Source of the DNA: Vibrio gallicus
GTDB lineage: Bacteria; Pseudomonadota; Gammaproteobacteria; Enterobacterales; Vibrionaceae
Assembly (NCBI RefSeq): GCF_024346875.1
Contig: NZ_AP024871.1
Coordinates: 930,001 to 994,000 of the forward strand
Direction: 5' to 3'
Length of the DNA: 64,000 bases
Numbering within the stretch: position 1 is the first letter of the stretch; each line of letters starts with the position of its first letter. A model generated the notes under the pieces. The model ran no database searches. It was not told where the DNA came from and worked only from the letters and a program-made list of their open reading frames with translations. The translations under genes were made by a program, and so were the position numbers. Shown piece by piece: positions 5,314 to 36,612 of the stretch.

Positions 5314-5334
5314 CTCTTTCCAGTTACCAGTTTG

Positions 5335-5534: not shown

Positions 5535-5545
5535 CATCTAGATAT

Positions 5546-6657: not shown

Positions 6658-6673
6658 AAGTGTGTGTCCCGTT
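6658..6673 (+). repeat. REP-like half unit (AGTGTGTGTCCCGTT)
   Basis: It carries the same core and CCCGTT flank as the right arm of the palindrome at 5444-5459, but no left arm is visible. It is probably a decayed copy. Confidence 0.5.
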
Positions 6674-6697
6674 GAGTTTTGAATGGAGCCACTACAG

Positions 6698-6710
6698 AGG
6701 TGTGTGTCCC
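6698..6710 (+). repeat. REP-like half unit (AGGTGTGTGTCCC)
   Basis: A second single-armed copy of the GGTGTGTGTCCC core, 40 bases after the previous one and in the same orientation. It is followed by TTTTGGTG repeats of low complexity (6711-6738). Confidence 0.5.
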
Positions 6711-6750
6711 TTTTGGTGCTTTTGGTGTTCTTTTGGTGATATGGGGATAT

Positions 6751-6777
6751 AAAAAAGGCTGCCTTGTTAGGCAGCCT
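6751..6777 (-). terminator. Intrinsic terminator after csiV
   Basis: Read on the minus strand, AGGCTGCC / GGCAGCCT (6770-6777 with 6756-6763) forms a hairpin followed by six T residues, 19 bases after the csiV stop. Confidence 0.8.
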
Positions 6778-6795
6778 AGTGGGTATTGGGGGAGC

Positions 6796-7587: not shown

Positions 7588-7662
7588 TTTGGCTCCATAG
7601 CTTGTTTATTGCCGTTTATCTTAATGAATTGTATCAGTTTTTCACGAACTCGCAGAATTGAT

Positions 7663-11118: not shown

Positions 11119-11412
11119 AATTTGTGTGTGGTTCCTACACGCCCTAAGTAGATTATCATTATCGTAAACCACGCTTACATATCAACCAGTAACGGATAAA
11201 TACGATGCAACCGCTCAAAAATTAGGTCAATCTTGCTTTCTGGCAGTCAATATTGGGTTCAGATCGGGCTATGGCTTTAAAAAATACCCTTAAAATTCTG
11301 CATACCTCAATAAAAACCAAGCATTACTTGAAGTGAATTGCAGATAGTCGTTACAGTAATGGGTCAAGCTAGCCCTTTGGCTGCGGAAGCACCACACATT
11401 ATGGATATATAT

Positions 11413-12621: not shown

Positions 12622-13306
12622 CTTATTAAGCTGTCAAAACCTAACCAAGGTTTATCGTGAAGGCAGTGTGGATACCGAAGTCCTGAAAGGGGTGAGCTTT
12701 GATATTAAAGCGGGAGAACTAGTTTCTATCGTGGGCAGCTCCGGTTCAGGCAAAAGCACGCTATTGCATATTTTAGGTGCTCTTGATGAGTCAAGTGCTG
12801 GTGGGGTGCAATTTCAGCAACAACCTCTAGATAAACTAAGCGCAAATCAGCAGGCAAAACTGCGTAATCAATATCTCGGTTTTGTGTATCAATTTCACCA
12901 TCTTTTAGCGGATTTTTCTGCGGTTGAAAACGTTGCAATGCCTTTACTTATTGGTGGCACAAAACCACAGCTGGCTAAGCAAAAAGCGATTGAGCTTCTG
13001 AAAAAAGTAGGGCTAGAACACCGCCTTGAGCATAGACCCTCGGAGCTGTCTGGCGGAGAGAGACAGCGGGTTGCCATCGCTAGAGCCTTGGTTAATGAAC
13101 CGGCTTTGGTACTTGCTGATGAGCCAACAGGTAACCTAGACCACAGTACTGCGTTAGATATTTATGATCTTATGCGCGAGCTTAATCAAAAATCAGGCAC
13201 TGCTTTTTTAGTGGTTACTCACGATAGTGAATTGGCGAGTAAAATGGACAGAAAAATGCATATGCAAGATGGTCTGTTGTTAAAAAGTGAAGAGGGCGCT
13301 TCGTGA
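12614..13306 (+). CDS. lolD: Lipoprotein-releasing ABC transporter ATPase LolD
   Basis: The 230-residue cytosolic ATPase energises the LolCDE transporter. It has Walker [10 protein letters not shown] (residues 41-49), the Q loop at FVYQFHHLL, the signature LSGGERQRV, Walker [13 protein letters not shown] and the switch histidine in [24 protein letters not shown] is characteristic of LolD among the MacB-like ATPases. It overlaps lolC by eight bases and lolE by four, which implies translational coupling of all three subunits. Confidence 0.95.
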
Positions 13307-14547
13307 TTTCATCGCTCTCTCTATTTATTGGAGCGCGCTTTAGTCGTGCCAAACAACGCAATAAAATGGTCTCCTTTATTTCACTTTCTTCAACCCTTGG
13401 CATTATGGTTGGGGTTGCGGTCATTATTGTGGGTTTGTCCGCGATGAATGGCTTTGAAAGGGAGCTGCAAAATAGGGTGTTAGCTGTGGTTCCCCATGGG
13501 AACTTTACCGCAGTCAACAAGCCAATAGAGGATTGGCAGGCGTTGGTTAAATATATCCAAAATAAACCCCAGGCTGTCGCCGCGGCGCCGTTTGTGAAGT
13601 TTACCGCGTTAGCCGAAAAAGGCACCCATCTGAAAGCGGTTCAGGTACAAGGGATTGACCCTAGTTTAGAGCAGGGGGTTTCTGATCTGTATCGCTTTGT
13701 TAAAGGAGATGCTTGGCACTCCTTTAAAGCAGGCGATCGGAATATGATCCTTGGGCAAGGGGTGGCGAATCAGCTTGGAGTGAAAGTTGGTGATGCCATC
13801 TCGATTATGATCCCAAGTCCTCCACAAAATGGTCGTACCCAAGCACCTAAGAGGGTACGAGTGAAGATATCTGGGATCTTCTCTCTAGGCGGTCAACTCG
13901 ACCATTCCTTAGCACTAGTCCCCCTTGCTGATGCACAAGGGTATTTAGCTATGGGAGATACAGTAAACGGGATCTCAGTTAAAACGACCGATGTATTTAA
14001 TGCGCAGCCGTTAATGCGCAGCTTGGGAAATACGTTACCCTTGTATGTGTATATCAATACTTGGCAGCAGGATTTTGGTTATATCTACCGCGATATCCAG
14101 ACAGTGAGAACCATAATGTACCTAGTCATGGTGCTAGTGATTGGGGTGGCTAGCTTTAATATTGTGTCGACCTTAATGATGGCAGTAAAAGATCGCGCAG
14201 CTGAGGTGGCAATTTTGCGTACTATGGGGGCGCAAGACTCACTAATTAAAGCAATATTTATGTGGCAAGGGGTCTTTTCTGGGGTATTGGGTGCAATAAT
14301 TGGCAGCATATTGGGGCTGGTTGTTGCGTCAAATCTTACGGTGTTAATCAAAGGTGTAGAGGCGCTGATTGGGCACCATTTCTTATCCGGAGATATCTAT
14401 TTTATAGATTTCCTGCCTTCTGAGGTGCATAGCAGTGATGTACTTTTGGTCTCGGGAACCGCGATATTGCTAAGCTTGATTGCAACTTGGTTTCCCGCAC
14501 GAAAAGCGGCAAGGCTGAACCCAGCTATGGTGTTGAGTTCGAAATAA
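13303..14547 (+). CDS. lolE: Lipoprotein-releasing ABC transporter permease LolE
   Basis: The 414-residue permease partner of LolC opens [20 protein letters not shown], followed by TM1, a periplasmic domain and three C-terminal TM helices ([20 protein letters not shown] onward). The [12 protein letters not shown] segment after TM1 is shared with LolC. The start is a GTG at 13303 that overlaps the lolD stop as GTGA. A strong bidirectional hairpin ends the operon. Separate LolC and LolE, rather than a LolF homodimer, are typical of gammaproteobacteria. Confidence 0.94.
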
Positions 14548-14568
14548 ACTAAGACTGAATAAAGTATT

Positions 14569-14602
14569 AAAAAAGCGCTAACTCCATGAGTAGCGCTTTT
14601 TT
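14569..14602. terminator. Bidirectional terminator between lolE and DUF2062 gene
   Basis: AAAAAAGCGCTA-ACTC and GAG-TAGCGCTTTTTT pair around a three-base loop with one bulge. A and T tracts on both sides serve the two convergent genes. Confidence 0.8.
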
Positions 14603-14613
14603 TGTAGCTAGTG

Positions 14614-15138
14614 TTATGAGAACGGGTTGAGCTTGAGTTTCCGTTTTTGCCAGCTGCGAACTACTGAATAGCGCCACAACGCGCGGATGCCAAAGTAACC
14701 AGTAATTGAGCATACAGCAGCACAGATAGCACATCCTAGTAGAAACGGAGGGCCGATAGTCGACATCTGTGATACGAGGTAATCCCATGATAGCTCGAAA
14801 TGGAAGCTCTGTGGCGGTACATGCATCAACAACGAGCCTATCTTGTACGCAAAATAGAACATAATCGGCATGGTTATCGGATTGCTTATCCATACTAGCG
14901 CTACTGATAACGGTAGGTTTACACCAAATAGTATGGCCAGTCCAGCGGCCATGATCATCTGACTAGGCAGAGGAACAAAGCACATAAATAGACCAACAGC
15001 AAATGCACCTGAGGCGGAGCGACGGTTCAAAACCCATAGGTTTGGGTTGTACAGTACATTCCCGAATATTCGAAGCGCTTTTTGACGTTTGATGACTTCA
15101 TGGTCAGGCATAAAGCGTTGAATAAATTTTCTAGGCAT
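14614..15138 (-). CDS. DUF2062 domain-containing membrane protein
   Basis: A 174-residue inner-membrane protein of the DUF2062 family. After a basic N-terminus (MPRKFIQRFMPDHEVIKRQKAL) come the conserved-looking ASGAFAVGLFMCFVPLPSQM segment, a TM helix, the WISNPITMPIMFYFAYKIG motif and a further TM near residues 130-150. The function is unknown; related proteins are often encoded near comEC and msbA in gammaproteobacteria. Its start codon lies only eight bases from the divergent comEC start, so the promoters must lie inside each other's coding sequence, or one start is misassigned. Confidence 0.8.
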   Translation of the reverse strand: MPRKFIQRFMPDHEVIKRQKALRIFGNVLYNPNLWVLNRRSASGAFAVGLFMCFVPLPSQMIMAAGLAILFGVNLPLSVALVWISNPITMPIMFYFAYKIGSLLMHVPPQSFHFELSWDYLVSQMSTIGPPFLLGCAICAAVCSITGYFGIRALWRYSVVRSWQKRKLKLNPFS

Positions 15139-21966: not shown

Positions 21967-22533
21967 ATGTATAGGTTACTGTTTTTAATTTGTTTTGTAA
22001 GCTCACCGGTATTTGCTCATTCTGGGCATTTAGATGCAAGTAGTGGGTTTAGTGCGGGATTCTTGCATCCCTTTTTGGGGTTAGACCATTTATTTGCCAT
22101 GCTGTGCGTTGGGATCACCAGTTCTAGGTTGGGGGGGCGTGCAATTTGGGCTGTGCCTGGGCTGTTTATCGGTGTAATGACGATTGGCTTTATTCTCGGA
22201 AAGCAGGGGATACCTTTTGCTTATTTTGAGTCTCTAATTGGGCTTTCTTTAGTGTTCTTTGGTATTTTATTAGTACCGACTATGAAGCTACGAATAGGCT
22301 ACATCGTGTGGCCGATTATGGTATTTGCAATCGCACATGGGTATGCCCATGGCAGTGAGATTGGTGTATTACATAATCCATGGGACTTCCAACAAGGCTT
22401 TTTGTTGGCTTCGGTAATTATTCATATTTGTGGCGTTATGCTTGGCTTTATTCCCACTTCGAATCCATACGTTCAACGTGGTGTTAAAGCGGGGTTTGTT
22501 GCGATAGCCGTATATGGCATCTTTTTGATTTGA
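21967..22533 (+). CDS. hupE: HupE/UreJ family nickel permease
   Basis: HupE proteins are inner-membrane nickel permeases that feed hydrogenase or urease assembly. The 188-residue product has a cleavable signal peptide (MYRLLFLICFVSSPVFA, residues 1-17) leaving an N-terminal HSGH, then the family motif HPFLGLDHLFAMLCVG and five to six TM helices with conserved histidines (AIAHGYAHGSE). No urease genes are visible, and the convergent gene is hypD, so it is best read as the nickel supplier of this hydrogenase. It is transcribed on its own, toward the hyp operon, and shares the terminator at 22558-22591. Confidence 0.9.
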   Translation: MYRLLFLICFVSSPVFAHSGHLDASSGFSAGFLHPFLGLDHLFAMLCVGITSSRLGGRAIWAVPGLFIGVMTIGFILGKQGIPFAYFESLIGLSLVFFGILLVPTMKLRIGYIVWPIMVFAIAHGYAHGSEIGVLHNPWDFQQGFLLASVIIHICGVMLGFIPTSNPYVQRGVKAGFVAIAVYGIFLI

Positions 22534-22615: not shown

Positions 22616-23743
22616 TTATTGGTGCGGCTTTACTTGAACATTATATTGGTAGTAAGCCGAGCAAGCGCCTTCATTGGATACCATGAGCGCCCCAACCGGA
22701 TTGGCAGGTGTGCACTCTTTGCCAAATAATGGGCAATCGGTAGGCTTTGCTAGTCCTTTTATCACGTTGGCGCAGCGACACCCTTCTGGTTCTGCAATTC
22801 GATTTGGGTTTAGGTTATATCTCGTAGAGGCATCAAATTTTTGATAAGCCGGTTTCAGCTTAAGCCCTGACTCATCGATATTGCCGAGACCTCGCCAATC
22901 ACTAGACTGCGCAATAGTGAATACATCGTTAATTGCCAGCTGTGCCAATTGGTTACCACTATCGGAAACGGCACGTTGGTAGCAGTTAACTACATCCACT
23001 TGCTCATTGCTCACTTGGTCGACAATGGATTCGATTGCCATCAGGAAATCAAGCGGTTCAAATCCGGCTGTGGCGACGGGTAGTTGATACTCATCATTAC
23101 AGAACTGATAGTGCTTTTGACCTGTAATAATTGATACATGTCCCGGAGCTACTAGTCCATTTAAGCGAACGTTTTCATCATCTAATACCGAGCGTAGAGC
23201 TGGCTCAAGTAATATATGATGACAAAGTACTGAAAAGTTAGTTACGTTCTGACGCGCAGCTTGCTGAAGAGTCAGGGCTGTGGGTGGGGTCGTCGTTTCA
23301 AAGCCAATTGCAAAAAATACCACGTCTTTGTCTGGATTTTGCTTGGCTAACGCTAACGCATCTAGCGGCGAGTAGACGATACGAATATCCGCGCCACGAG
23401 CCTTAGCCGCTAATAGATTACCATCTTGGCCAGGAACGCGCATTGCATCGCCATAACTACAGAAAATAACGTTATCTTGTTCAGCAATCTCAATCGCTTC
23501 ATTAATGCGTTGGCGCGGCAATACACACACAGGACAGCCAGGGCCATGCACAAATTCAATGCTATCATTGAGAAGCTTATCTAAACCAAAGCGGAAGATA
23601 GTATGGGTATGACCACCACACACCTCCATGATTTGCAGAGGTTTGCTAGGTGACAGCTGCTCAAGTTTATTGTTGATAGATTCAACCAGCGCCATTACCT
23701 TTTCTGGTTGGCGGTATTCACTAATGAATTTCACTGTGTTCAC
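22616..23743 (-). CDS. hypD: Hydrogenase Fe(CN)2CO maturation factor HypD
   Basis: HypD is a [4Fe-4S] protein that, with HypC, holds the iron while cyanide and CO ligands are attached. The 375-residue product has ICEVCGGHTH-type residues (IMEVCGGHTHTIFRFG), FVHGPGCPVCVLPR, GFETTTPPTA and the C-terminal cysteine set (GCRCANVIKGLAKPTDCPLFGKEC in outline) that binds the cluster. It is the last gene of the operon and overlaps hypC by 23 bases, a coupling that fits the HypCD complex. Confidence 0.95.
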   Translation of the reverse strand: MNTVKFISEYRQPEKVMALVESINNKLEQLSPSKPLQIMEVCGGHTHTIFRFGLDKLLNDSIEFVHGPGCPVCVLPRQRINEAIEIAEQDNVIFCSYGDAMRVPGQDGNLLAAKARGADIRIVYSPLDALALAKQNPDKDVVFFAIGFETTTPPTALTLQQAARQNVTNFSVLCHHILLEPALRSVLDDENVRLNGLVAPGHVSIITGQKHYQFCNDEYQLPVATAGFEPLDFLMAIESIVDQVSNEQVDVVNCYQRAVSDSGNQLAQLAINDVFTIAQSSDWRGLGNIDESGLKLKPAYQKFDASTRYNLNPNRIAEPEGCRCANVIKGLAKPTDCPLFGKECTPANPVGALMVSNEGACSAYYQYNVQVKPHQ

Positions 23744-23969
23744 CCATTTGTTCTATTAACTCCAGAGTCTCGGTCGCTTCTTGCTCACTGATAATCGCCA
23801 GCGCGAACCCTACGTGGACTAATACCCATTGCTCTATCAATGATTCGCTATTTTCAAGCCAAACACATGCCGCGTTCACCTCGCGTTTAAGTCCATTAAT
23901 TGACACTGTGACTAGCTGTTGTTCTGGATCCGAGATTGCAACTATCTGTGCAGGTACACCTAAACACAT
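23721..23969 (-). CDS. hypC: Hydrogenase maturation chaperone HypC
   Basis: An 82-residue HypC/HybG family protein. After removal of Met1, Cys2 of MCLGVPAQIVAI would carry the iron ligand-transfer role, and the WVLVHVGFALAIISEQEA segment is typical. HypC shuttles the Fe(CN)2CO unit from HypD to the large-subunit precursor. It overlaps hypD and sits two bases from hypB. A second, diverged member lies at 28632-28874. Confidence 0.95.
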   Translation of the reverse strand: MCLGVPAQIVAISDPEQQLVTVSINGLKREVNAACVWLENSESLIEQWVLVHVGFALAIISEQEATETLELIEQMGEHSEIH

Positions 23970-23970: not shown

Positions 23971-25002
<1,032 letters not shown>

Positions 25003-25342: not shown

Positions 25343-26266
25343 CTATTCATTACCCTTGTCGCTGTTGGTTGAGTCAAATTCAATACTCACTTCCATACAG
25401 GGAAAGTGGGTGAGTATCCATACCGACAACGCGAGTGGATAGTCGGCTAATTGTTTAAGATTTATGCCTAATAAACTGCGGCTTAGGCTATCAACGATAC
25501 CCGATGTGGGTACCTGTATTGTATATTGTTTAACCGCACTATTGTGCCAAGTGACGTGATGGCTAAGCTGCCCCCTTGCCGCATCAACCGTACCGTCAAA
25601 ACGCTGGTTAGAGTGATAATGCTGTGGCTGAATAACGTCGATTTGTGCATCAACTAGCTCCTGCCACATCGCTTGGATACGATCTACAATTGTGGGAGTA
25701 ATCTGCTGCATACGCACGCTTGGGCCTGATTCATATTGCTGCAAGACGGATTGCTCAGTATATAACTGCTTCGCCCAATGCTGCTGGTGTATGTACTCAA
25801 TAATCGGCTTAAACAGGGCGCTTTTAAAATCGACTGTCGTTATTGGCTCATCAATTGTTATTGGTACGGCTTGGCTATTGGCAAGCCATATATCATGGGC
25901 TAGCCGCGCTTTATACGCCATCAGTTGTTGGCGAAATTGCGTGAACAGCGCTTGTTGTGAGGGTTGCGCGGTAAATAACAGTTGAAATATTCGCCACAGT
26001 TGCCAGCTAATTTCTAACATGCGTTCCAACGCCAGTGCTTGATTTTGTGCTTGTTGTTGAGCTTGATTTGCACTGATACCTTGGGTGTGAAAAAAGGCGC
26101 TATTATGCGCTTGTCCACACTGCTTGTAGATTAAATTGAGGCGCTTGTTTACCGTAGCGGCATCTTGATTTAATAACACTGCATTTACGTTGGGGTAATT
26201 AAATTGGGCGAAGCAGTCGCGAATTATATCGTGCTCTATGTGTAGCTTTAGAATGATACCCGGCAT
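25343..26266 (-). CDS. HupK-like degenerate paralogue of the hydrogenase large subunit
   Basis: A 307-residue protein that I read as HupK-like. It follows the outline of a [NiFe] large subunit but lacks the nickel site. Where HyaB has RICGVCTYSH, it has KQCGQAHNSAF (Cys50 kept, second Cys lost). A mid-protein ARGQLSHHV echoes the large-subunit PRGMLSHW. The end FPCMEVSIEF replaces DPCMACAVH, losing one cysteine and the cleavage-site histidine. HupK in Rhizobium is known to assist maturation; a scaffold holding the Fe(CN)2CO unit is the usual proposal. The start is the ATG overlapping the hypF stop (TAATG); an upstream in-frame start at 26323 lies inside hypF and is less likely. Confidence 0.7.
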   Translation of the reverse strand: MPGIILKLHIEHDIIRDCFAQFNYPNVNAVLLNQDAATVNKRLNLIYKQCGQAHNSAFFHTQGISANQAQQQAQNQALALERMLEISWQLWRIFQLLFTAQPSQQALFTQFRQQLMAYKARLAHDIWLANSQAVPITIDEPITTVDFKSALFKPIIEYIHQQHWAKQLYTEQSVLQQYESGPSVRMQQITPTIVDRIQAMWQELVDAQIDVIQPQHYHSNQRFDGTVDAARGQLSHHVTWHNSAVKQYTIQVPTSGIVDSLSRSLLGINLKQLADYPLALSVWILTHFPCMEVSIEFDSTNSDKGNE

Positions 26267-28629
26267 TAATTGGTTGCTCCCGTGTGTAACTGACCTGAAG
26301 CTGGTAACTGCCTGCGATGCCAAGCAATCAATGCTTGGCCAACACTAATACCGCCGTCGTTAGCAGGGATAGTGCTGTGTATTAATGGGATTTGGTTTTG
26401 TTTAGTTAGGCCATGTTTTAACAGCATTAGTAGCAGGCTGTTTTGCATGACACCACCACTTAACACCACTTGGTTGGTGGATGCCAGTGGCTTTGCATCG
26501 TGCAACCAACACAAAACTATGTGCGCCAAGTATCGATGGAAAAATAGCGCTATGTGTGCGTTTGATTGCTGCCCATATTTTAGTAATAAGTGCTGCCACA
26601 TAAGCTCAATAGAGGGATTAGGGTCGCTGTGTTGCAAATCAGTAAGCTCAAGATGTGCCATATTAAACCCTTGCCATGCCAGCCCCTCTAATGTCATTGC
26701 GGCTTGGCCTTCAAAGCTTTGCTGTTCAAATACATCGCTAACTAACGCAGCTACGGCATCAAAAAGGCGTCCAGTGCTGCTGGCTATAGGGCTGTTGATG
26801 TTATTTTTCATCGCTTGGCGCAACAGTGGTAGTGGCTTGCATGATAATTGCTGTAAGGCGCTGTTTGGCACCTGAGTACCATGGTGGGTTTGCCATGTTG
26901 GAACATGGGTTTCGAGCTGGGCTAATAGATTTCGCCACGGCTGGATTGATGCCTTGTCACCACCAATTAACGGGACTGCGGGTAAGCCTGTAATTCGCTG
27001 ACAGGTGGCATAATTGGCAATAAATAGCTCCCCACCAAATAGGTTATGTGAGCAATTGTCATGTATATCATCGTTCCAACCTAAGCCGTCAAGGGTCACA
27101 GCGAGCATGGGGTTGTGATAACGAGAGATCTGATTATCCGCTAAGCAGGCTGCGATATGGGCGTGATGATGGTTTACGCTCGCTTGCGCTACATGAGTAA
27201 ATAGAGCGTTGGCATACTGATGAGTGATATAGCCAGTGTGGCAATCATAAGCCCCGAGTGTGGTTTGATGAGCAAATAGGCTCTGCGTATCTTGGATAGT
27301 TGTCTTTATCTCATCCACTATCATAGGATTAGATGCATCACCGAGGTGGGGCATCATCAGGGCTCGTCCGCGCTTTGTAATGCATGTAGCTTGCTTGAGA
27401 TCCGAGCCTAAGGCTAAGACGCCATCGCAGTGTTCAAACCCGGCAGGTAGGTCTAACATTTGAGGGACATAACCACGAGCACGGCGCATGATACTGGCTT
27501 TGCCATCAATGACCTGTACGATACTGTCGTCGAGGCGACGTACAATGTCACGATTATGGGTTAAAAACAAATCACACAGTTGCCCAAGTTGTGCCAAGGC
27601 TTGCAGGTTATCGATTGGCATTGGAAAGCCACTTTTGTTAGCCGATGTCATAACCAGAGGCCTATCGCACAGTTCCAATAATAGGTGCTGTAGAGGATTG
27701 CTAGGCAGCATAATGCCGATATATGGCATGGCAAAACTCACGTTCTCTGCCACGAGAGAATTGGGTTTTGGTTTAAGCAATACAATTGGCGCGGCGGCGC
27801 TAAGCAATTGACGCTGCTCTTCTTGGTTAACGTAGGCGATAGCGCGGACAGCATCAATATCTTTAACCATCAACGCAAACGGCTTATGTGGACGGTGTTT
27901 TCTGTGGCGCAAGGTAGTGACTGCGCAAGCATTGGTTGCATCAACCGCTAGATGAAATCCACCTACACCTTTAATTGCAACTGTCTTACCGCAGAGTAGT
28001 TGCTTTGCACACCAATCGAGAGGCTGCCCGCCTGCCTGTGAGACCGGCTTACCTTGGTTATCTTGAACCGTGATACTTGGCCCACAGGTAGGGCAAGCGG
28101 TAGGTTGCGCATGGAAGCGTCGATCCCTTGGGTCTTGATATTCGAGTTGGCATGTATTGCACAATTCAAAGGAGGCCATAGAGGTGTTCGCTCTATCGTA
28201 TGGTATGGCTTTTATGATGGAATAGCGTGGCCCACAATGGATGCAATTGGTAAATTCATAGCCATGGCGCGAATCCTTAGAATCATGGATTTCTTGTAAG
28301 CAGTGTTCACAGGTAGCAGCATCGGGTGCAATGCTGGTATCCATAATGCCGGCATTAGATTGAGATATAACAAAGTCGGTATAGGATTTAATCTCGATAT
28401 TACTTTGGGTTATGGAATCTATGACAGAAAGTTTAGGAGCATATTGCGAAATCGCGTCGATAAACTGCTCAATCTTGCTGTCTGGTTTTAGCTTAATGCC
28501 GACCCCGTTTGCGTCATTGTATACCTCACCCAATAGTCGAAACTGATGTGCTAATTGCCAGACAAATGGCCGGAAACCGACCCCTTGTACTTGGCCTTTG
28601 ATTCGAATAAGAACACCAGTTTCTGGCAT
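26266..28629 (-). CDS. hypF: Carbamoyltransferase HypF
   Basis: HypF turns carbamoyl phosphate into the thiocarbamate on HypE that becomes the cyanide ligands. The 787-residue product has all modules: acylphosphatase (GQVQGVGFRPFVWQLA, residues 9-24), paired zinc-finger motifs (CEHC, CIHC, CNTC, CPTC), a YrdC-like domain (KHRPHKPFALMVKDI ... VMTSANKSG) and the Kae1-like carbamoyltransferase domain with HHHAHIAACL, VTLDGLGW, VVLSGGVMQN and ANDGGISVGQ. The gene lies between a second hypC-like gene and the HupK-like gene, all closely spaced. Confidence 0.96.
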   Translation of the reverse strand: MPETGVLIRIKGQVQGVGFRPFVWQLAHQFRLLGEVYNDANGVGIKLKPDSKIEQFIDAISQYAPKLSVIDSITQSNIEIKSYTDFVISQSNAGIMDTSIAPDAATCEHCLQEIHDSKDSRHGYEFTNCIHCGPRYSIIKAIPYDRANTSMASFELCNTCQLEYQDPRDRRFHAQPTACPTCGPSITVQDNQGKPVSQAGGQPLDWCAKQLLCGKTVAIKGVGGFHLAVDATNACAVTTLRHRKHRPHKPFALMVKDIDAVRAIAYVNQEEQRQLLSAAAPIVLLKPKPNSLVAENVSFAMPYIGIMLPSNPLQHLLLELCDRPLVMTSANKSGFPMPIDNLQALAQLGQLCDLFLTHNRDIVRRLDDSIVQVIDGKASIMRRARGYVPQMLDLPAGFEHCDGVLALGSDLKQATCITKRGRALMMPHLGDASNPMIVDEIKTTIQDTQSLFAHQTTLGAYDCHTGYITHQYANALFTHVAQASVNHHHAHIAACLADNQISRYHNPMLAVTLDGLGWNDDIHDNCSHNLFGGELFIANYATCQRITGLPAVPLIGGDKASIQPWRNLLAQLETHVPTWQTHHGTQVPNSALQQLSCKPLPLLRQAMKNNINSPIASSTGRLFDAVAALVSDVFEQQSFEGQAAMTLEGLAWQGFNMAHLELTDLQHSDPNPSIELMWQHLLLKYGQQSNAHIALFFHRYLAHIVLCWLHDAKPLASTNQVVLSGGVMQNSLLLMLLKHGLTKQNQIPLIHSTIPANDGGISVGQALIAWHRRQLPASGQLHTGATN

Positions 28630-28631: not shown

Positions 28632-28874
28632 TTAGATCTCTCCGCTCTGCATTTTGTCGAAGATAATCTGATAAAGCTCAAGGCTTTCTAATGCCGCGTC
28701 TTCTTGCATAGTTTGCACCGCTCGGCCTGATTGGATCAGTACATAATCACCCAAAGCTAAAGGGTCAGTAATAAGGTGGATATCAACTTCTCGAGTTGTA
28801 CCTAAGGTATCAACCAGAGCAGTTTGGTTGGTGAGATCAAGCTTGGTGATCTTAGAAGGAATAGAAAAACACAT
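28632..28874 (-). CDS. Second HypC/HybG/HupF-family chaperone
   Basis: An 80-residue HypC-family protein, MCFSIPSKITKLD..., with the essential Cys2 and a LGDYVLIQSGRAVQTM strand pair matching the family, but clearly diverged from the HypC at 23721-23969. Organisms with more than one HypC-type protein often dedicate one to a particular large subunit (HybG) or to late cofactor protection (HupF). Only one large subunit is visible here, so the two may act at different steps. It lies two bases upstream of hypF and 15 bases after the HypF-like gene. Confidence 0.88.
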   Translation of the reverse strand: MCFSIPSKITKLDLTNQTALVDTLGTTREVDIHLITDPLALGDYVLIQSGRAVQTMQEDAALESLELYQIIFDKMQSGEI

Positions 28875-28889: not shown

Positions 28890-30623
28890 CTAGCGAGTGA
28901 GTTGGGCGTCGTTTGCGACAAACATTGAACCGAATACTAGATTCATTGCAGTTAAGTCTGAATCGTAGCTGTGAGTAAGCTGGACGTTTTTAGATAAGCG
29001 TAAGCGCAACAACTCTAAAAAGATTGGATTATCGAATTCGTTACCAGCTAAGGTGAGCTTTTCAAAGCCAAGGTGTTGATCAAATCGTTCAATCCATGCA
29101 CATAGATAGTCAGCAAGACTGTCTAAGAAGCCAGCAACGATGACTTTGTTATCATCTGGCATGGCTACGTAATAACTCAGTACTGATTGAAATGCTTTAA
29201 CCCAATCGATTTCTAAGGTATCACCTTTGGTTATGAGCTCGAATTCAACGCGAGGTAAGTTCTCAAACTTGTTCGAGATAACCGTTGCTACAGCACTGTT
29301 ACTGGCTTGCACTAAGGTCGCACCGTTATCACTTAGACCAAGGATAATAGCGAGTAATCCCAACATATCGCTTAGGCTGCCATTTGCGGTAGGAGCGTTT
29401 GCAATACGTTGACCATTAGCCTCTATGAACCGAGCCACCAGTTGCGTACTAGTGGGGTCTAATTCTGTTATTTGGTTAAGTAAATCCCTAAGGATGATCT
29501 CTTTACTGTACTGCGGCGCTTCGAACAGCCATTGATAGTCATAGGTTTTCTTATTATCTATGCGGTGTAATAGCCCAGAAGGGTATCGGTTATCAAGATA
29601 AAGCACGGCGCATTTCTTTGGAAAACGATCGCGCTGGAGAAGGTTTTCTAGAGCGTACGCAGCACTCATCTCGGGTTTAGACAAAGGGTGCGGATTATTG
29701 TCGCGCTTAATGCTGAGCGTGCCTTTTTTCCACTGTGCGTTTAAACCTAGTGCTGCGACTGAGGTGTGTATAGGCTGATGGGTAATTAAGGACTCAGGCT
29801 GCGGGGCGTTATCAAAATATAGGATGTCAGTCCCAAATTTAAGGATATGAGGACTGGTGTCGTCACCGTCTAATACAAATGCGTGGATATCCTGACCTGC
29901 ACAATAGGTTGCAATTGTGTACGCCAGTTTGTGTGCCGGTAATGAAACGATGTAAGTATCAAGCGGTAATTGATATTTTTGTTTGAAGTCGGGCTTAATG
30001 GCTAAGCGTAGACTCGGCTTTTCAATACTGAGTAATAGTTGCAGATCGCGCTCGGTGACAAAGCAGGCGTTTTGCAATGCTTCAATGCTAGTAAAAACCA
30101 TACGTTGTTGGTGCGGTTCAATATCTGTAAGTGGAAGCCAAGTTTCATTGACAATGTGACTGCCGTAGAGAGATTGAAGCGTCAGTGGTTTTTGCTCAAC
30201 CAAGACCTCAGTCGATTGCAATAGCTGCTGGGTATCTGAAGGTATTACGGCCTGTTCATTGACTGTGATAGCGTTAATTATCGCGCTTTCACACACAGGG
30301 CAGAGGTGAGTAAAATCATCTTTACACTGCTCACAATAGTGCACGTAATCCACAGACTCACTAGTGGTCAGTAATTTACTGCTACCTTTGAATGACGGCA
30401 CTGCGCTGATGTCTGTGCCGGTTATAGAGCAAGACAACGGAAAGCTTTGCCCTATAATATTAGCCAGTTCGGTGATCTCATCTTGGTCGCCATTGGCTTC
30501 AACATGATAGCCATTACTATCATGATAAATGGCATGCACTAACTTGCGTTGCAGTAATTCGTTGCATCGCCTAGCGTACAAATCAATCTGTTTAGTGGTA
30601 AAAAAGCTGAATCGAATAATCAT
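28890..30623 (-). CDS. Degenerate HypF-like hydrogenase-associated protein
   Basis: A 577-residue protein of no firmly known function. By eye it is collinear with HypF. Residues 1-68 resemble the acylphosphatase fold (AIYHDSNGYHV versus VYNDANGVGI) without the VQGVGFR catalytic loop. Two CxxC pairs (C97/C100, C108/C111) replace the larger zinc fingers. A YrdC-like part aligns (LLLSIEKPSLRLAIKP versus LLSAAAPIVLLKPKP) without the RPxxKP motif. At the end, LAGNEFDN (525-532) stands for LSGGVMQN, and DLTAMNLVFGS for NDGGISVGQ. Catalysis is therefore unlikely. It may correspond to the HydE-type accessory protein of epsilonproteobacteria, which I cannot verify. It lies between hyaD and the second hypC, so a maturation scaffold is the best guess. 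Confidence 0.65.
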   Translation of the reverse strand: MIIRFSFFTTKQIDLYARRCNELLQRKLVHAIYHDSNGYHVEANGDQDEITELANIIGQSFPLSCSITGTDISAVPSFKGSSKLLTTSESVDYVHYCEQCKDDFTHLCPVCESAIINAITVNEQAVIPSDTQQLLQSTEVLVEQKPLTLQSLYGSHIVNETWLPLTDIEPHQQRMVFTSIEALQNACFVTERDLQLLLSIEKPSLRLAIKPDFKQKYQLPLDTYIVSLPAHKLAYTIATYCAGQDIHAFVLDGDDTSPHILKFGTDILYFDNAPQPESLITHQPIHTSVAALGLNAQWKKGTLSIKRDNNPHPLSKPEMSAAYALENLLQRDRFPKKCAVLYLDNRYPSGLLHRIDNKKTYDYQWLFEAPQYSKEIILRDLLNQITELDPTSTQLVARFIEANGQRIANAPTANGSLSDMLGLLAIILGLSDNGATLVQASNSAVATVISNKFENLPRVEFELITKGDTLEIDWVKAFQSVLSYYVAMPDDNKVIVAGFLDSLADYLCAWIERFDQHLGFEKLTLAGNEFDNPIFLELLRLRLSKNVQLTHSYDSDLTAMNLVFGSMFVANDAQLTR

Positions 30624-30655: not shown

Positions 30656-31180
30656 TTATAGCGCAGGGATATCTGTAATGGATAGGTCGTTGAGTTTTAT
30701 TACCTCAACTTGCTGCTGCTGCAAGTGTGTAACAAGCGCCTGCTCCATGATTGGAACTGCGGCTTGGACTTGGTCCGATAATTCAAAACTCATAGATTCA
30801 AGTACAGTGGGGCTGACGCCAAGTACGTAAGTTTTAGGGCGATCGCCGACGATATCCATCATATTTAGGGTAGCTAACATTTCAACTTCGTGGGCACTAC
30901 CTTGAAAGTCAATATGGCTTGGAACCGCATCAAAATCAAAGAAGTAAACCTTACCGGTCTCCTTTTCTGATGAGTTAATCGTATCGATGACCACGACCTG
31001 TTCATATCTACTTAGCAAAGGAATAAGCCCATGGGCAAGGGTGCCTCCATCAATAATATCGATGTTATATAGGCTGCTATTGAGCTGATATTTTTGTTCG
31101 ATCAGTTTTGCAAACCTTACGCCGATACCTTCATCGGCGTAAAGAATGTTACCAATCCCTAAGATTAAGAGATTGCTCAC
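30656..31180 (-). CDS. hyaD: Hydrogenase maturation endopeptidase HyaD (M52 family)
   Basis: A 174-residue protease that cuts the C-terminal tail from the large subunit after nickel insertion. It has the family motifs LGIGNILYADEGIGVR (the glutamate is a nickel ligand), IDGGTLAHGL, VVVIDTINSS (aspartate ligand) and the SAHEVEM histidine. YVLGVSPTVLESM completes the signature. The 3' tail is slightly longer than usual. Its start overlaps hyaC by four bases (ATGA). Confidence 0.93.
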   Translation of the reverse strand: MSNLLILGIGNILYADEGIGVRFAKLIEQKYQLNSSLYNIDIIDGGTLAHGLIPLLSRYEQVVVIDTINSSEKETGKVYFFDFDAVPSHIDFQGSAHEVEMLATLNMMDIVGDRPKTYVLGVSPTVLESMSFELSDQVQAAVPIMEQALVTHLQQQQVEVIKLNDLSITDIPAL

Positions 31181-31881
31181 TTATTGAAATCCCCGTGATC
31201 GTGATGATCGGGGTGATAGTAATCTAACCCTGAAATCATAGGGTCAACTGAGCTCACCTTAAAACGAACCGCAGTGAAGATCACCATATAAATATGAACA
31301 ATGATAAACACCAAGAAAACCCAGGTGACTTCGTGATGCAGGGTGCGAATGAAGGCTAATCCACCAACATCCTCAAGCATACCTACAACCCAGTTTGCGA
31401 TAGGCAAGATAGCGCCACCAAGGTTATCGTGATATACGTTTGCATATAAGATAAGTCCGGTTGCACACATCAGCATAATGACCAAAGTCAAAAAGAAATA
31501 GGTCATAAACTGCAATACATTGTAAGCGCCATTTTTTTCCTTTGGCCCTTGATATGTATAAGCCTTCATTACCGATATCCAAGCCTTGATCTTGAAAATA
31601 TCTTTAAATGAACGGCGCTCAATATCGCTTCTACTAAAGAAGAATAAATAGGTTCTAATCATAGTAATGGCAACCAAAAGGAAGCCAAATATTTGATGTG
31701 TAAAACGAACCCAGCCCTGGACTAGATGGTCACTCGTTCCCATTGATACCAAAAACGGCCATGAGATGTAGAAACCAGTAATAGCCAGCATTCCGATAGC
31801 CACCAGTCTTAACCAGTGGCAGATTCGAATTGCAGCACTAAAGGTTACTTCACGAGCGTAACGTGCTTTGTTGTTAGCCAT
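31177..31881 (-). CDS. hyaC: Ni/Fe-hydrogenase b-type cytochrome subunit HyaC
   Basis: A 234-residue integral membrane dihaem cytochrome b that anchors the hydrogenase and passes electrons from H2 to quinone. Four TM helices are evident, with haem-ligand-type histidines in RICHWLRLVAI, RFTHQIFGFLLV and LHHEVTWVFLVFIIVHIY. This makes the enzyme a membrane-bound, periplasm-facing uptake hydrogenase. The C-terminus is His/Asp-rich (YYHPDHHDHGDF). Confidence 0.94.
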   Translation of the reverse strand: MANNKARYAREVTFSAAIRICHWLRLVAIGMLAITGFYISWPFLVSMGTSDHLVQGWVRFTHQIFGFLLVAITMIRTYLFFFSRSDIERRSFKDIFKIKAWISVMKAYTYQGPKEKNGAYNVLQFMTYFFLTLVIMLMCATGLILYANVYHDNLGGAILPIANWVVGMLEDVGGLAFIRTLHHEVTWVFLVFIIVHIYMVIFTAVRFKVSSVDPMISGLDYYHPDHHDHGDFNK

Positions 31882-31894: not shown

Positions 31895-33598
31895 TTATAC
31901 CGCGGGTTTCACTTCAAACTGGCTGAGTTCATTGCCTTCGAAATCCATAACGTGTACAGCACATGCCATACATGGGTCAAACGAGTGAATGACACGAATA
32001 ACCTCTAAAGGTTTCTTAGGATCTTCAAGTTTCAAGCCAATTAAATCCGCTTCGTATGGACCAATATTGCCATTTGCATCAACAGGGCCTGAGTTCCATG
32101 TCGATGGAACAACCGCTTGATAATTGGCAACCTTTCCGTCTTTAACACGGATCCAGTGACTGAGCATACCGCGTGGCGCCTCAATCATAGAGTAGCCCTC
32201 ACTTTCGCTTGGAACCTTGCTCATATCAGGTTTACGATAGGTTTCGTCATCGACTAAAATATTATCGATTAGCGCTTGTAAGGTTTCGAATGCTGCGTTG
32301 GTTACGATACGTGTTTGCAGCATACGTGCCGCCGTACGGCCTAAGGTGGTAAATAGTGCTTCTACCGGTAATCCGGTTGTTTTTAAGAAGTCATTTACTT
32401 CATCGACAACAACTTGATTGCCTTTAGCGTAGTTCACCACCATAGATGCTAACGGTCCTACCTCAAACGGTTGACCATCATAGCGAGGTGATTTAACCCA
32501 GCTGTATTTACCGTCTTGGTCTAGGGTCGGTAGCTTACCGTATACGGTTTCGCGATCCTTCATCCCGGTATATTCCGGTTCAGTTTGACCATCAAATGGG
32601 TGCAGTGGTTCATCACCTTTGTACCAAGAGTGGGTCACGTCTTCCTTAATAAGGCTAGGGTCAAGGTCGAATACCTGACTGATGTCGCCGTTCTTAATTA
32701 CACCGCTGTGCAGCAAGTGAGTCTCGCCTTTAGTGAAGAATTCTTGGGTAGTTAAGAAGTTTGGAACACCGACCTTGCCCAGTACTGAAGGCTCGGCTTT
32801 GTACGCTTCGGCTGCCATCAAGATATCAGGGTAGTAAGCGCGTTCGATAAAGTCTTGTACCGTTGCTAGCTTAGTCTTCCACTCTTGTAAACGTGCCGGG
32901 TTTAGCATGTCTCTAACTGAGGTAATCCCGCCGACAACCAATGATTGAGGGTGTGGGCTCTTACCGCCAAAGATAGCCATTAGCTCCGCGGCGATACGCT
33001 GAACATCTAGAGCCTTTAGGTAGTGAGACAAGGCAATTAAGTTCTGCTCTGGGGTGAATCTGTAGGTTTTGTTTCCCCAATACGCATTGGCAAATGGACC
33101 AAGCTTACCGGTATCAACCAGTTTTTGAACTTTTTGTTGAGCGGCTCGTAAATCACCCGCGCCAGCGGCAATAGGTACATCAGTATACTGCAATGCAACC
33201 TGAGCGGCTTTTTCAGGGCTTGCTGAAAGAGCGGCAACGACATCTACCCAATCCAGGGCATGCAGGTGGTAAAAGTGGACGATATGGTCGTGAATATTTA
33301 AAGATGCATGGATCAAGCTGCGAATGAACTTGGCATTTTTAGGGATCTCTACCCCCAATGCTTTCTCTACCGCTTCAGTACCACAACGATAGTGCGAATA
33401 GGTGCACACCCCACAAATACGCTGTACTAATAAGCCAACGTCAAATACCGAGCGGTCTTTTAGGATAACTTCAATACCACGCCATAATGACGAAGAAGAG
33501 TAGGCCTTCTGTACCACATTGTTTTCATCAACTTCTACTTCAATGCGTAGGTGACCTTCGATACGAGTGATCGGATCTATAACGACACGCTTGCTCAT
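31895..33598 (-). CDS. hyaB: [NiFe] hydrogenase large subunit HyaB
   Basis: The 567-residue catalytic subunit carries the Ni-Fe(CN)2CO site. The N-terminal nickel motif is RICGVCTYSH, and the C-terminal one is DPCMACAVH, followed by an 18-residue tail (VMDFEGNE...) to be removed by HyaD after the histidine. The EAPRGMLSHW segment is canonical. Sequence features fit the group 1 membrane-bound uptake enzymes. The start codon overlaps the hyaA stop (TAATG), which supports equal synthesis of both subunits. Confidence 0.97.
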   Translation of the reverse strand: MSKRVVIDPITRIEGHLRIEVEVDENNVVQKAYSSSSLWRGIEVILKDRSVFDVGLLVQRICGVCTYSHYRCGTEAVEKALGVEIPKNAKFIRSLIHASLNIHDHIVHFYHLHALDWVDVVAALSASPEKAAQVALQYTDVPIAAGAGDLRAAQQKVQKLVDTGKLGPFANAYWGNKTYRFTPEQNLIALSHYLKALDVQRIAAELMAIFGGKSPHPQSLVVGGITSVRDMLNPARLQEWKTKLATVQDFIERAYYPDILMAAEAYKAEPSVLGKVGVPNFLTTQEFFTKGETHLLHSGVIKNGDISQVFDLDPSLIKEDVTHSWYKGDEPLHPFDGQTEPEYTGMKDRETVYGKLPTLDQDGKYSWVKSPRYDGQPFEVGPLASMVVNYAKGNQVVVDEVNDFLKTTGLPVEALFTTLGRTAARMLQTRIVTNAAFETLQALIDNILVDDETYRKPDMSKVPSESEGYSMIEAPRGMLSHWIRVKDGKVANYQAVVPSTWNSGPVDANGNIGPYEADLIGLKLEDPKKPLEVIRVIHSFDPCMACAVHVMDFEGNELSQFEVKPAV

Positions 33599-34743
33599 TA
33601 CGCTTCCTCGTCCAGTTTTTTACCAAAAATACTTGCTACAGCATGGACAGTGATGCCCACAGCAGCAATACCTAATACAGCGGTACCAATATAATCTGAG
33701 GTCTTATCAAGGCTTGATGTAAAGTCTCGACGTCCTAGAGGTTTTTCAAATTCCGACATTGCATCCCAAAAGTTTGGTTCAGAGCAGCCAATACAACCAT
33801 GCCCTGCGAGAACAGGCCAACTGGTGCCACCGTTGAAACGCTGAGTTGGACAGTTGTTGTAGGTATAAGGACCCTTACAGCCAACCTTAAATAAGCAGTA
33901 GCCTTGTTTAGCGCCTTCATCACCAAACTCTTCTACAAATTCACCAGCATCAAAGTGACCACGACGCTCACAGTTGTCGTGAACTCGTGCACCGTATGCC
34001 CAACGTGGGCGGTTGTAGATATCAAGAGGTGGCAGTTTGCCAAACATAATGAAGTACATCAGTGTGCCAACGATATTTCGCTCACTTGGAGGACAACCCC
34101 CAAGGTTCACCACTGGTTTATCAATTACCTTGTGAATACCTTTAGCGCCCGTTGGGTTGGGAGCGGCAGCTTGTACGCCACCAAAAGAAGCACAGGTACC
34201 AACTGCAACAATAGCCGCCGCGCCGTCTGCAGCTTCTTCTAGGATTTTCATCCCAGTTTTGCCTTTGGCTCCGACGGTTAAAAATGTGCCATTATTTGCC
34301 GTAGGTACTGCACCTTCAACAGCCAGTAGGTACTGGCCGTGGTAAGCACTTAGTGCATGCTCAAGGTTTTCTTCAGCTTGCCAGCCGGCAGCTGCCATTA
34401 ATGTCTCATGGTATTCAAGAGATAAGTGGTCAAAGATCAGCGTATCTAGGGTAGGGGTATCGGCGCGAACCAGAGACTCAGAACACCCTGTACATTCAGC
34501 GAGGTGCAGCCATACCAAAGGAATACGGTCAGAGAGTTCCGCTGCTTTGGCGACCATAGGAGCAAATTCCATAGGCAATGCAAGCGCGGCGGCAGTCATC
34601 GATGACCATTTCATAAATTCACGACGATTAATGCCCGATTGGTCGATGTTTTCTACCAAAGGGGTCGTCTTCATCGCTGGCATAGCAGATAGCTTATCTA
34701 ATCTGTTTTTACAGATGTCCATCAATGCTTGATAATTGAACAT
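33598..34743 (-). CDS. hyaA: [NiFe] hydrogenase small subunit HyaA
   Basis: The 381-residue iron-sulfur subunit has a Tat signal with twin arginines at residues 40-41 (NRREFMKW) that exports the folded dimer. The proximal cluster motif reads ECTGCSESLVR, with glycine at residue 86, and a later GTCASFGGVQ also has glycine where oxygen-tolerant Hyd-1 has its extra cysteines. This points to a standard oxygen-sensitive cluster, like Hyd-2. HDNCERRGHFDAGEF and the GHGCIGCSEPNFWD cluster ligands are intact. A C-terminal hydrophobic helix (YIGTAVLGIAAVGITVHAV) is the membrane anchor. GGAG before the ATG supports the start. Confidence 0.96.
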   Translation of the reverse strand: MFNYQALMDICKNRLDKLSAMPAMKTTPLVENIDQSGINRREFMKWSSMTAAALALPMEFAPMVAKAAELSDRIPLVWLHLAECTGCSESLVRADTPTLDTLIFDHLSLEYHETLMAAAGWQAEENLEHALSAYHGQYLLAVEGAVPTANNGTFLTVGAKGKTGMKILEEAADGAAAIVAVGTCASFGGVQAAAPNPTGAKGIHKVIDKPVVNLGGCPPSERNIVGTLMYFIMFGKLPPLDIYNRPRWAYGARVHDNCERRGHFDAGEFVEEFGDEGAKQGYCLFKVGCKGPYTYNNCPTQRFNGGTSWPVLAGHGCIGCSEPNFWDAMSEFEKPLGRRDFTSSLDKTSDYIGTAVLGIAAVGITVHAVASIFGKKLDEEA

Positions 34744-34942: not shown

Positions 34943-35959
34943 CTAACATATGCGAGGAAGCTGTTCACCGGTGGGCATAAATAGTTTTTTTTGTGCGCCA
35001 TATAAACTCTCGATAAAGACACCATCAACAGAGTTAACAACGTTACCGATTATGGTTGCGTCTTGTCCAAAGGGGAGGCTTTTGATAGTCGCCAGCAGAG
35101 ACTCAGCCTGCTTAGCGTCTACAAAAATTACCGCTTTCCCTTCGTTGGCCATTAACAGCGGGTCAAGGCCGAGTATTTCCGAAACCGCAGTCACTTCTGG
35201 ATGAAGAGGCAAGGAGGCTTCGTTGATGATCATTCCAAGCTTGGATTGGTCTGCTATCTCATTACATACCGCAGCTACTCCACCACGAGTGGCATCGCGC
35301 ATCGCGTGTACACCTGGGTGTTGCAATAGCGGTTGGGTTAATAAATTCAATGGTGCGCAGTCGCTCACAATTGAGCCAGATAAGGCTAATTCATTACGTG
35401 CTTGTAAAATAGCGACGGCGTGATCGCCTAAGGTACCGGTGACGATAATCTTGTCACCGTTTTGGATCTCAGTCGTAGCGACATTGCATTGGCTCGGTAT
35501 GACGCCAATACCAGCAGTATTAATAAAAATCTTGTCACATGCCCCTCTAGCGACAACTTTGGTGTCACCCGTGACTATGCTAACCCCTGCCTCTTTTGCC
35601 GTTTGCGCCATAGCGATTACGATTTGCTCAAGGTCGGTCATAGGTAAACCTTCTTCAAGAACAAAACCGACGCTAAGGTACTTAGGAATTGCGCCACCTA
35701 CAGCAAGGTCATTGACCGTGCCGCAGACTGCGAGTTTCCCAATATTGCCACCTGGGAAAAAAATTGGGTCAATCACAAAACTGTCAGTGGCAAATGCAAG
35801 GCGGTCGCCTTGTTGCGCTAATGCATCTAACGGGATACGAGCCTGATCTTCTAGGTTATTTAGCTGTTCATTATTAAAGTGGTGTAGAAACATCTCTTTG
35901 ATAAGAGACTGCATCTTTTGACCACCACTTCCGTGTTCTAAGGTTATTAACTGAGACAT
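34943..35959 (-). CDS. hypE: Hydrogenase cyanide-ligand factor HypE
   Basis: HypE dehydrates its own carbamoylated C-terminal cysteine to a thiocyanate, the source of the CN ligands. The 338-residue product has the PurM-like N-terminal domain starting ITLEHGSGGQKMQSLI, the GDTKVVARG loop, and ends PRIC with the essential terminal cysteine. The ATG at 35959 gives the family N-terminus; an in-frame start at 36004 would add 15 unrelated basic residues. Unusually, hypE is the promoter-proximal gene, ahead of the structural genes, while the other hyp genes are distal. Confidence 0.95.
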   Translation of the reverse strand: MSQLITLEHGSGGQKMQSLIKEMFLHHFNNEQLNNLEDQARIPLDALAQQGDRLAFATDSFVIDPIFFPGGNIGKLAVCGTVNDLAVGGAIPKYLSVGFVLEEGLPMTDLEQIVIAMAQTAKEAGVSIVTGDTKVVARGACDKIFINTAGIGVIPSQCNVATTEIQNGDKIIVTGTLGDHAVAILQARNELALSGSIVSDCAPLNLLTQPLLQHPGVHAMRDATRGGVAAVCNEIADQSKLGMIINEASLPLHPEVTAVSEILGLDPLLMANEGKAVIFVDAKQAESLLATIKSLPFGQDATIIGNVVNSVDGVFIESLYGAQKKLFMPTGEQLPRIC

Positions 35960-36037
35960 AGTATTTAGTGAACACTTTTTTGAGCGAATGCGCGATAAAA
36001 TCAAATTACGCGGGTGGGCGCAACAACTGTAAATGTA

Positions 36038-36108: not shown

Positions 36109-36612
36109 TTAAAATCCGCCGGCCCAACGGTCAAATTCGTTGATTTTATGCCATTCCTTCTCTGTACGAGGTTTTGGAAAGTAGGGGAGTCTGAGGAGTT
36201 TTTCGTCTGGCAACAATACCCAATCAGGGGTAATTTTTAGCCGTTGAATGTGTTGGCTATTACTGGCTTTTACATACATGTAATAGCCATCACTGTGGGT
36301 ATTTGCATAGCTGGCAACCTTGACTTTATCCCCGTTGGGGAGTTGAACCATGCGCCCGAGTGGAAAGAGTTGATGCAAAGCAAAGCTGACATGGGCGTCT
36401 TGGCAGATACCTTGCTTAAATCGTGATAAACCAATAACGGTCGAGGTAGTACGTAGGCTCCAACCCGCAAGAGACAATCCCTTAAGCGTGTCTTTGAAAG
36501 GGACACCCTTCTCCATACCTTCATTGGAAATAAATTGCACTATGACATCATCATTGTTTTGCTCTAGGATCTGCAAAAATTGTTCGCCAGTCTTGTCTGC
36601 GAGAAGTTTCAT
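36109..36612 (-). CDS. Hypothetical protein upstream of the hydrogenase operon
   Basis: A 167-residue soluble protein I do not recognise. It has no signal peptide or membrane segment. Visible features are a mixed alpha/beta N-terminus (KTGEQFLQILEQNNDDVIVQF), a central strand-rich part (GRMVQLPNGDKVKVASYANT) and a proline/aromatic C-terminal tail (LPYFPKPRTEKEWHKINEF). It has ordinary codon use and an acceptable start. It shares the strand of hypE, with a gap of about 150 bases holding a candidate promoter, so it is probably separate from the hydrogenase operon. No function is proposed. Confidence 0.6.
   Translation of the reverse strand: MKLLADKTGEQFLQILEQNNDDVIVQFISNEGMEKGVPFKDTLKGLSLAGWSLRTTSTVIGLSRFKQGICQDAHVSFALHQLFPLGRMVQLPNGDKVKVASYANTHSDGYYMYVKASNSQHIQRLKITPDWVLLPDEKLLRLPYFPKPRTEKEWHKINEFDRWAGGF

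Follow-up and report, generated by a model that had tools for sequence, protein, structure and literature searches.

What does a HypF-like protein without the catalytic residues of HypF do in an operon that also encodes HypF? The question is raised by a NiFe-hydrogenase locus of Vibrio gallicus, analyzed here within a 64,000-nucleotide stretch of contig NZ_AP024871.1 (positions 930,001 to 994,000; hereafter the window). A preliminary description, made from the DNA letters, had placed a 577-aa, catalytically dead HypF look-alike in a complete hydrogenase locus, with a true HypF encoded two genes away. Its account of the surroundings holds: hydABCD, hydE and the hyp genes are all present in the window, and the second gene beyond the 577-aa open reading frame (ORF) is a hypF matching TIGR00143 at 743.5 bits (Table 1). 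The family to which the 577-aa protein belongs, HydE, is already known. Its function is called ‘not fully understood’ in PMC5557546, and the name HydE has no occurrence in a 2025 review of NiFe cofactor assembly (PMC12134894). A description of HydE as a HypF relative was not found in the titles and abstract openings of the literature searched, which lay outside subscription journals. What we add is the HypF ancestry of HydE, without the catalytic residues, and its tie to one hydrogenase type.

Identification as HydE

With the window's large subunit, HydB, as bait, 78 loci (from the best 80 stretches) were chosen without reference to hydE; a profile-matching ORF of at least 430 aa was counted as HydE. 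Such an ORF is found in 50 of the 78 loci (53 ORFs in total, some loci having more than one), and in each case its start falls within a range running from 82 bases before the hydD end to 86 bases beyond it. Carriers include Shewanella, Ferrimonas, Photobacterium, Arcobacter, Sulfurovum, Nautiliaceae, Campylobacter and Helicobacter. The window protein alone (phmmer) labels several Campylobacterota HydE sequences at an expect value (E) of 1e-3 or less, and the profile adds the remainder. Its nearest HydE, from Vibrio halioticoli, is 56–57% identical, and automatic annotation of that protein hints at HypF (PF22521; UniRef name beginning ‘Carbamoyltransfer’). In UniRef, ‘Protein hydE’ is the name of a relative of a Helicobacter pametensis protein, and Helicobacter hydABCDE corresponds to hp0631 to hp0635 in excerpts of PMC4992972. 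The hydABCDE gene order and the relative named ‘Protein hydE’ together identify the window gene as hydE, the last link to H. pylori HP0635 being made through gene order and homology. The identity with epsilonproteobacterial HydE that the preliminary description had suspected is thus borne out by the place after hydD and the homology to Campylobacterota HydE.

The Helicobacter and other Campylobacterota proteins resemble the window protein in their position 3' of hydD, their sequence and their HypF fold. They differ in length (490 to about 750 aa, versus 577 aa), some lack the zinc finger that the window protein keeps, and in the window a HypC/HupF-family gene sits between hydE and hypF. Two namesakes are distinct. 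The HydE of FeFe-hydrogenase maturation is a radical S-adenosylmethionine protein of a different fold and shares only its name with the window HydE, in which Pfam scans found no radical S-adenosylmethionine family. Shewanella hydE is sometimes called hyaE; the HyaE of E. coli is thioredoxin-like and small, and the Pfam scan of window HydE gave no thioredoxin-like match.

Position is not fixed: hydE adjoins either hydD or hypF. In 6/6 Campylobacter genomes (our loci L093–L096, L098, L101) it lies apart from hydABCD, immediately 5' of hypF, with which it overlaps. C. jejuni-type loci without hydE after hydD were rejected as counter-examples, as a whole-genome search found hydE adjoining hypF. 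In two loci the hydE frame is broken (L038, Photobacterium damselae, 12966–14688; L101, C. jejuni 414, 1185–2706) and intact in relatives; this may be sequencing error or real loss.

Descent from HypF

When 53 HydE sequences are combined into a profile, its alignment with the HypF profile runs over the full length (hhalign, 539 columns, E 1.2e-18), as the preliminary description had proposed by eye. Taken separately, the finger and YrdC-like part aligns with HypF at E 2e-10, and residues 1–76, which form a beta-alpha-beta-beta-alpha-beta succession in the predicted model (DSSP), align at E 2.4e-4 (probability 43.8). The AlphaFold model of the 577-aa protein (predicted local distance difference test score 93.6) has HypF crystal structures as its best Foldseek matches, as does the model of a 490-aa Campylobacter HydE; Kae1/TsaD chains rank next after HypF in the structure searches. 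An unrelated fold, the outcome that the preliminary description had named as contrary to its view, did not appear, and that reading is rejected because the predicted structure matches HypF.

Single-sequence searches are far less informative. For the window protein, the Pfam scan gave nothing above cut-off (HypF_C_2 sub-threshold, 22.1 bits versus 27), the NCBIfam scan 0 families at E 0.01 (TIGR00143 not matched) and a phmmer search of the Protein Data Bank no match at E 10; none of the HypF-related models scanned matches the protein above its cut-off. Among 7999 candidates scored in each search, it found one relative, and a 5-row alignment found no more. In a class-wide search the same 5-row alignment gave 5/369 genomes, including that of the window; the four remaining matches, all weak, were to HypF (L086, L087, L088, L089) and were rejected as HydE.

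On the basis of sequence profiles and predicted structure, HydE is a descendant of HypF that has kept the fold. It has the same domains in the same order; HypF has two fingers and HydE one, and the residues of the acylphosphatase and Kae1 sites are absent from HydE.

Lost and kept residues

Residues were counted over 46 non-redundant HydE rows, rows at least 80% identical to another being left out. Alignment A3 omits five of the 53 bait-locus ORFs as near-duplicates (L010, L011, L018, L020, L033), and no alignment includes the fragmentary hydE of L038, L055 or L101. The catalytic roles of the HypF residues are those known from the HypF literature. Of 111 HypF columns conserved in at least 27/28 rows, 72 have a HydE counterpart in the alignment. 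Half or more of the 46 HydE rows retain 12 of them: all four second-finger cysteines, P65, S277, P281, L317, three positions of the SGGVMQN region (the first glycine, N730 and L733) and G764. The acylphosphatase R20 and N38 are kept in 0/45 HydE rows, H487, H488 and H491 of HHxAH each in 1/45, D514 in 2/44, and N757 and D758 of NDGG in 0/46; the first SGG glycine is present in 46/46 and the second in 1/46. No HydE residue aligns to K249/P250 of the YrdC motif RPxxKPxA, and the R246 position is arginine in 16/46. In the VQGVGFR loop, HypF Q15–G18 have no aligned residue and F19–R20 lie opposite Q12–I13 of the window protein (hhalign).

The motif readings of the preliminary description were therefore right, both for the missing VQGVGFR loop and for LAGNEFDN and DLTAMNLVFGS (hhalign) opposite LSGGVMQN and PANDGGISVGQ, and its claim that catalytic motifs are altered extends to the family, the alignable acylphosphatase and Kae1-site residues occurring in at most 2 of 44–46 rows. 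It had also read the CxxC fingers as reduced: HypF has two CxxC...CxxC fingers, nothing in HydE aligns to the first, and the one left (C97, C100, C108, C111) matches the second. All four finger cysteines are found in 36/46 rows and none in 8/46.

HydE conserves rather little of its own. S64, E201, P203 and G527 are invariant (46/46), and L197, S483, A487 and S502 (45/46) and D460 (44/46; E in the window) nearly so. Nine columns reach 44/46 rows, compared with 111 HypF columns at 27/28, divergence not being matched between the two sets. The E201–P203 stretch coincides with a motif in the HypF consensus (SxExPIVL). These positions bear on whether HydE is a cryptic enzyme, for example one handling another ligand precursor between its YrdC-like and Kae1-like parts. 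The complete HypF fold, the invariance or near-invariance of S64, E201, P203, G527, D460, S483 and S502, and the question, still open according to PMC12134894, of where anaerobic maturation obtains the CO ligand metabolically would suit such an enzyme. We nevertheless rate it improbable: the acylphosphatase and Kae1-site motifs are gone, other hydrogenase types in the order survey below occur without HydE, and across the 46 rows no group of invariant charged residues was found that would suggest a chemistry of its own, the alternative that the preliminary description had asked to be checked. As judged from the alignment, the conserved positions do not look like a new active site.

Co-occurrence with one hydrogenase type

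In a sample of 295 genomes from the order to which the window belongs, the 19 with HydE are the same 19 that have a HydB at least 68% identical to that of the window, and HydE occurs in 0/24 further genomes having only other large subunits (best identity 44–50%). The co-occurrence that the preliminary description had suggested examining is thus evident in the order sample (19/19 versus 0/24). In the bait loci, HydE is present in 63/64 at 49% or more HydB identity to the window, the exception (L037) being a 3-kb metagenome contig, and in 0/11 tested loci at 48% or less. For the 28 bait loci without a HydE ORF, 25 genomes were searched whole (the three others are L076, L082 and L084): in 13 of them HydE is located elsewhere, is broken or is truncated by a contig end, and the other 12 lack it. 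Cross-matches at L103–L106 in this search proved to be HypF, not HydE, and were rejected; the strongest HypF cross-match to the HydE profile in whole genomes was 1.1e-11. In 150 genomes drawn from the phylum to which G496 (source of the C. jejuni locus L066) belongs, HydE is found in 145 (best E between 1e-22 and 1e-28 for 7 of these) and HydB in 147, and the three genomes without HydB are also without HydE. HydE is thus tied, by co-occurrence, to the HydABC (Wolinella/Helicobacter-like) respiratory hydrogenase.

Several duplicated sets have a hydE each. Four Arcobacter-type loci (L044, L045, L047, L162) have two hydABCD sets with hydE in each and one hypF in the stretch seen, and one genome has two hydABCD+hydE sets on separate contigs (L160, L161). 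The second set type forms a single clade with support 1.0 in the HydB and HydE trees alike (57 rows).

Pairwise distances over 45 loci agree with this picture. HydE distances correlate with those of HydB (rho 0.917), HydD (0.914), HydA (0.910), HydC (0.902) and HypF (0.636), in a comparison that ignores shared ancestry. Set a, the first of the hyd sets in L044, L045 and L047, is excluded from this comparison and kept in the trees. HydE thus follows the hydABCD genes more than HypF. After correction for HydB, a correlation of 0.32 remains between HydE and HypF, compared with 0.13 for the HydD control. This residue, the shared fold and operon and the hypF overlap in Campylobacter loci would be expected if HydE were a regulator or decoy of HypF, mixed HypF/HydE:HypE complexes adjusting cyanide supply. 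We give that idea a very low probability: HypF distances break with hydABCD and HydE distances do so less, the Arcobacter-type loci have two hydE per hypF (in the stretch seen), and H. pylori needs HydE for hydrogenase activity (excerpts of PMC7695850).

The window HypF is 48–49% identical to those of L005, L023 and L034 and 31–37% identical to those of the other 41 loci. A HypC/HupF-type gene between hydE and hypF is also found in L005, L023 and L034. The pattern looks like an exchange of a hypC2-hypF-hupK module that left hydABCDE in place.

Selection and divergence

The median ratio of nonsynonymous to synonymous substitution rates (dN/dS) over 24 close pairs is 0.187 for HydE, 0.171 for HypF, 0.096 for HydB and 0.106 for HydD; the pairs overlap, several dS values are high and two HypF pairs are saturated. 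In pairs with L068, HydE reaches 0.68. hydE is under purifying selection, at the level of HypF. That hydE might be a decaying, functionless HypF pseudogene, as its lost catalytic residues and the broken copies in a few genomes might imply, is barely credible in the face of this selection, of the co-occurrence with HydB in two sampled groups and of the H. pylori mutant phenotype (PMC7695850); neutral dN/dS was not found, and we reject that reading. HydE is nonetheless the most divergent of six proteins over the 45 loci (mean p-distance 0.714, versus 0.548 for HypF and 0.306 for HydB).

Proposed function

On balance we lean, slightly, toward HydE being a non-catalytic, hydrogenase-specific maturation adaptor, whose step and partners (HypE, HypCD or HydB) we infer. 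HydE has lost the residues by which HypF, the carbamoyl phosphate-converting enzyme and carbamoyl-HypE ligase, makes and transfers carbamoyl-adenylate, and has kept the HypF fold. Its HypF-derived body would bind the ligand-assembly machinery (HypE or a HypCD/HypE complex), its fast-evolving surfaces might recognize the cognate HydB precursor, and HydE could in this way direct Fe(CN)2CO assembly or delivery to that HydB. HydE distances are closer to those of the structural hydrogenase genes than to those of HypF, which makes an adaptor for one hydrogenase simpler than a platform for Hyp proteins only. A HypE or HypCD docking platform that organizes cyanide transfer was the role that the preliminary description had tentatively suggested. 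A more specific version, which we put forward tentatively and would not call probable, is that HydE serves as an address label, with a HypF surface for HypE/HypCDE and another fitted to one large subunit, each HydABC-type hydrogenase having its own HydE.

HydE is reportedly needed for Helicobacter hydrogenase (a 2004 finding credited to Benoit). Excerpts of PMC7695850 state that H. pylori HydE is required for hydrogenase, not urease, activity, and HypE and HypF are described as forming an alpha2beta2 complex from which HypE visits HypCD transiently (PMC12134894, in part). HoxV is a large-subunit relative carrying Fe(CN)2CO, and HupK is related to HoxV (passages of PMC12134894 and PMC3534401). 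By analogy, HydE would be a maturation enzyme that lost its activity and became an adaptor, much as HoxV/HupK is a dead large subunit now used as a scaffold. The shared logic would be that of a pathway protein's relative becoming a dedicated assembly factor; HupK derives from the large subunit, HydE from HypF.

Several observations weigh against a hydrogenase-specific adaptor. Locus L158 (genome G853, 3013–11146) has a tandem hydABC-hydABCDE arrangement with one hydD and one hydE for both sets (HydB copies 78% identical), and L159 has a hydA-hydB-hydD set without hydC and without adjacent hydE, hydE being elsewhere in the genome. Genomes G633 and G636 have HydB at E near 1e-170 and no HydE, and HydB score is no clean separator, since G584 (4e-167), G518 (5e-99) and G523 (4e-90; two HydB matches each in G518 and G523) all have HydE. 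That HydE diverges most among the six proteins sits oddly with a hub that has several partners, 10/46 rows have a partial zinc finger or none, and D460, S483 and S502, near-invariant in HydE and not HypF-invariant, could mark an unrecognized site. To these must be added two literature statements on localization: HydD and HydE are said to localize hydrogenase to the membrane (excerpts of PMC4992972), and a table in PMC7695850 assigns this role to HydE, the discussion of the same paper calling its function unknown.

The localization statements favor a different role, in which HydE would act as chaperone for the small subunit, for twin-arginine translocation export or for assembly in the membrane (HydA/HydC), its descent from HypF amounting to no more than a recycled fold. 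HydE distances track HydA and HydC almost as closely as HydB, and two hyd sets without a HydC-labelled gene (L159, L071) are also without an adjacent HydE. HydD, however, which is named alongside HydE for localization, belongs to the large-subunit endopeptidase family, and the statement is therefore a weak guide. HypF ancestry points instead to the large-subunit cofactor pathway, hydE of the six Campylobacter loci lies away from hydABCD and overlaps hypF, and L073 and L083 have a HydC-labelled gene and no HydE in the genome. We consider a small-subunit or membrane chaperone unlikely, if less so than the cryptic enzyme, and retain the maturation adaptor.

Other genes of the locus

The gene order is hydA-hydB-hydC-hydD-hydE-HypC/HupF gene-hypF-HupK-like gene-hypA-hypB-second HypC gene-hypD, with hypE upstream; hypA is called by position and sequence only. 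The operon thus holds two worn-out paralogues, HydE and the HupK-like protein. The 577-aa protein has no PF00374 (NiFe large subunit) match in the Pfam scan, and its HupK-like neighbor has a sub-threshold one. HupK-like relatives are labelled in L023 and L034, and L005 has a comparable ORF 3' of hypF. The His-rich N-terminal stretch of the window HypB, with its (GH)n run, is perhaps a nickel store. Upstream of hypE lies a 167-aa ORF (36109–36612, minus strand) without Pfam or NCBIfam match, and the hyp cluster ends with a HupE/UreJ-family gene on the other strand (21967–22533, plus strand; PF04955, E 4.7e-43).

Table 1. Features of the hydrogenase locus and of HydE in the window.
Feature	Coordinates	Strand	Basis
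hydE, 577-aa HypF-derived protein without HypF catalytic residues	28890..30623	-	ATG-start ORF; homologues 3' of hydD; HypF profile match; AlphaFold/Foldseek
Acylphosphatase-like domain, residues 1-76, catalytic Arg and Asn lost	30396..30623	-	DSSP of model; hhalign
Single zinc finger C97/C100/C108/C111, residues 97-111	30291..30335	-	Aligned to HypF C157/C160/C179/C182
YrdC-like domain, residues about 116-275, SxEKP motif (S199, E201, K202, P203)	29799..30278	-	
Kae1-like domain, residues 286-577, HHxAH metal motif lost	28893..29768	-	hhalign E 2e-9
LAGNEFDN, residues 525-532, opposite HypF LSGGVMQN	29028..29051	-	hhalign
DLTAMNLVFG, residues 556-565, opposite HypF PANDGGISVG	28929..28958	-	Family consensus DLDGxNxAxG
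hydA, NiFe small subunit	33598..34743	-	TIGR00391
hydB, NiFe large subunit	31895..33598	-	Family-model scan
hydC, cytochrome b subunit	31177..31881	-	PF01292
hydD, maturation endopeptidase	30656..31180	-	TIGR00072, PF01750
HypC/HupF-family chaperone gene, between hydE and hypF	28632..28874	-	PF01455 E 1.3e-17
True hypF, all HypF domains	26266..28629	-	TIGR00143 743.5 bits; Pfam domains
HupK-like protein, degenerate NiFe large-subunit relative	25343..26323	-	PF00374 sub-threshold, E 2.8e-4
HypB, very long His-rich N-terminal stretch including (GH)n run	23971..25002	-	
Second HypC-family gene	23721..23969	-	
hypE	34943..36004	-	TIGR02124

Implications

The orphan HydE becomes a candidate factor in the Fe(CN)2CO pathway that can be put to the test, and another dead copy turned assembly factor would stand beside HupK/HoxV. 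If the proposed role is true, HydE would constitute a layer of specificity in NiFe maturation beside the HypC/HybG chaperones, and where HydABC-type hydrogenases are produced in foreign hosts, hydE may have to be supplied.
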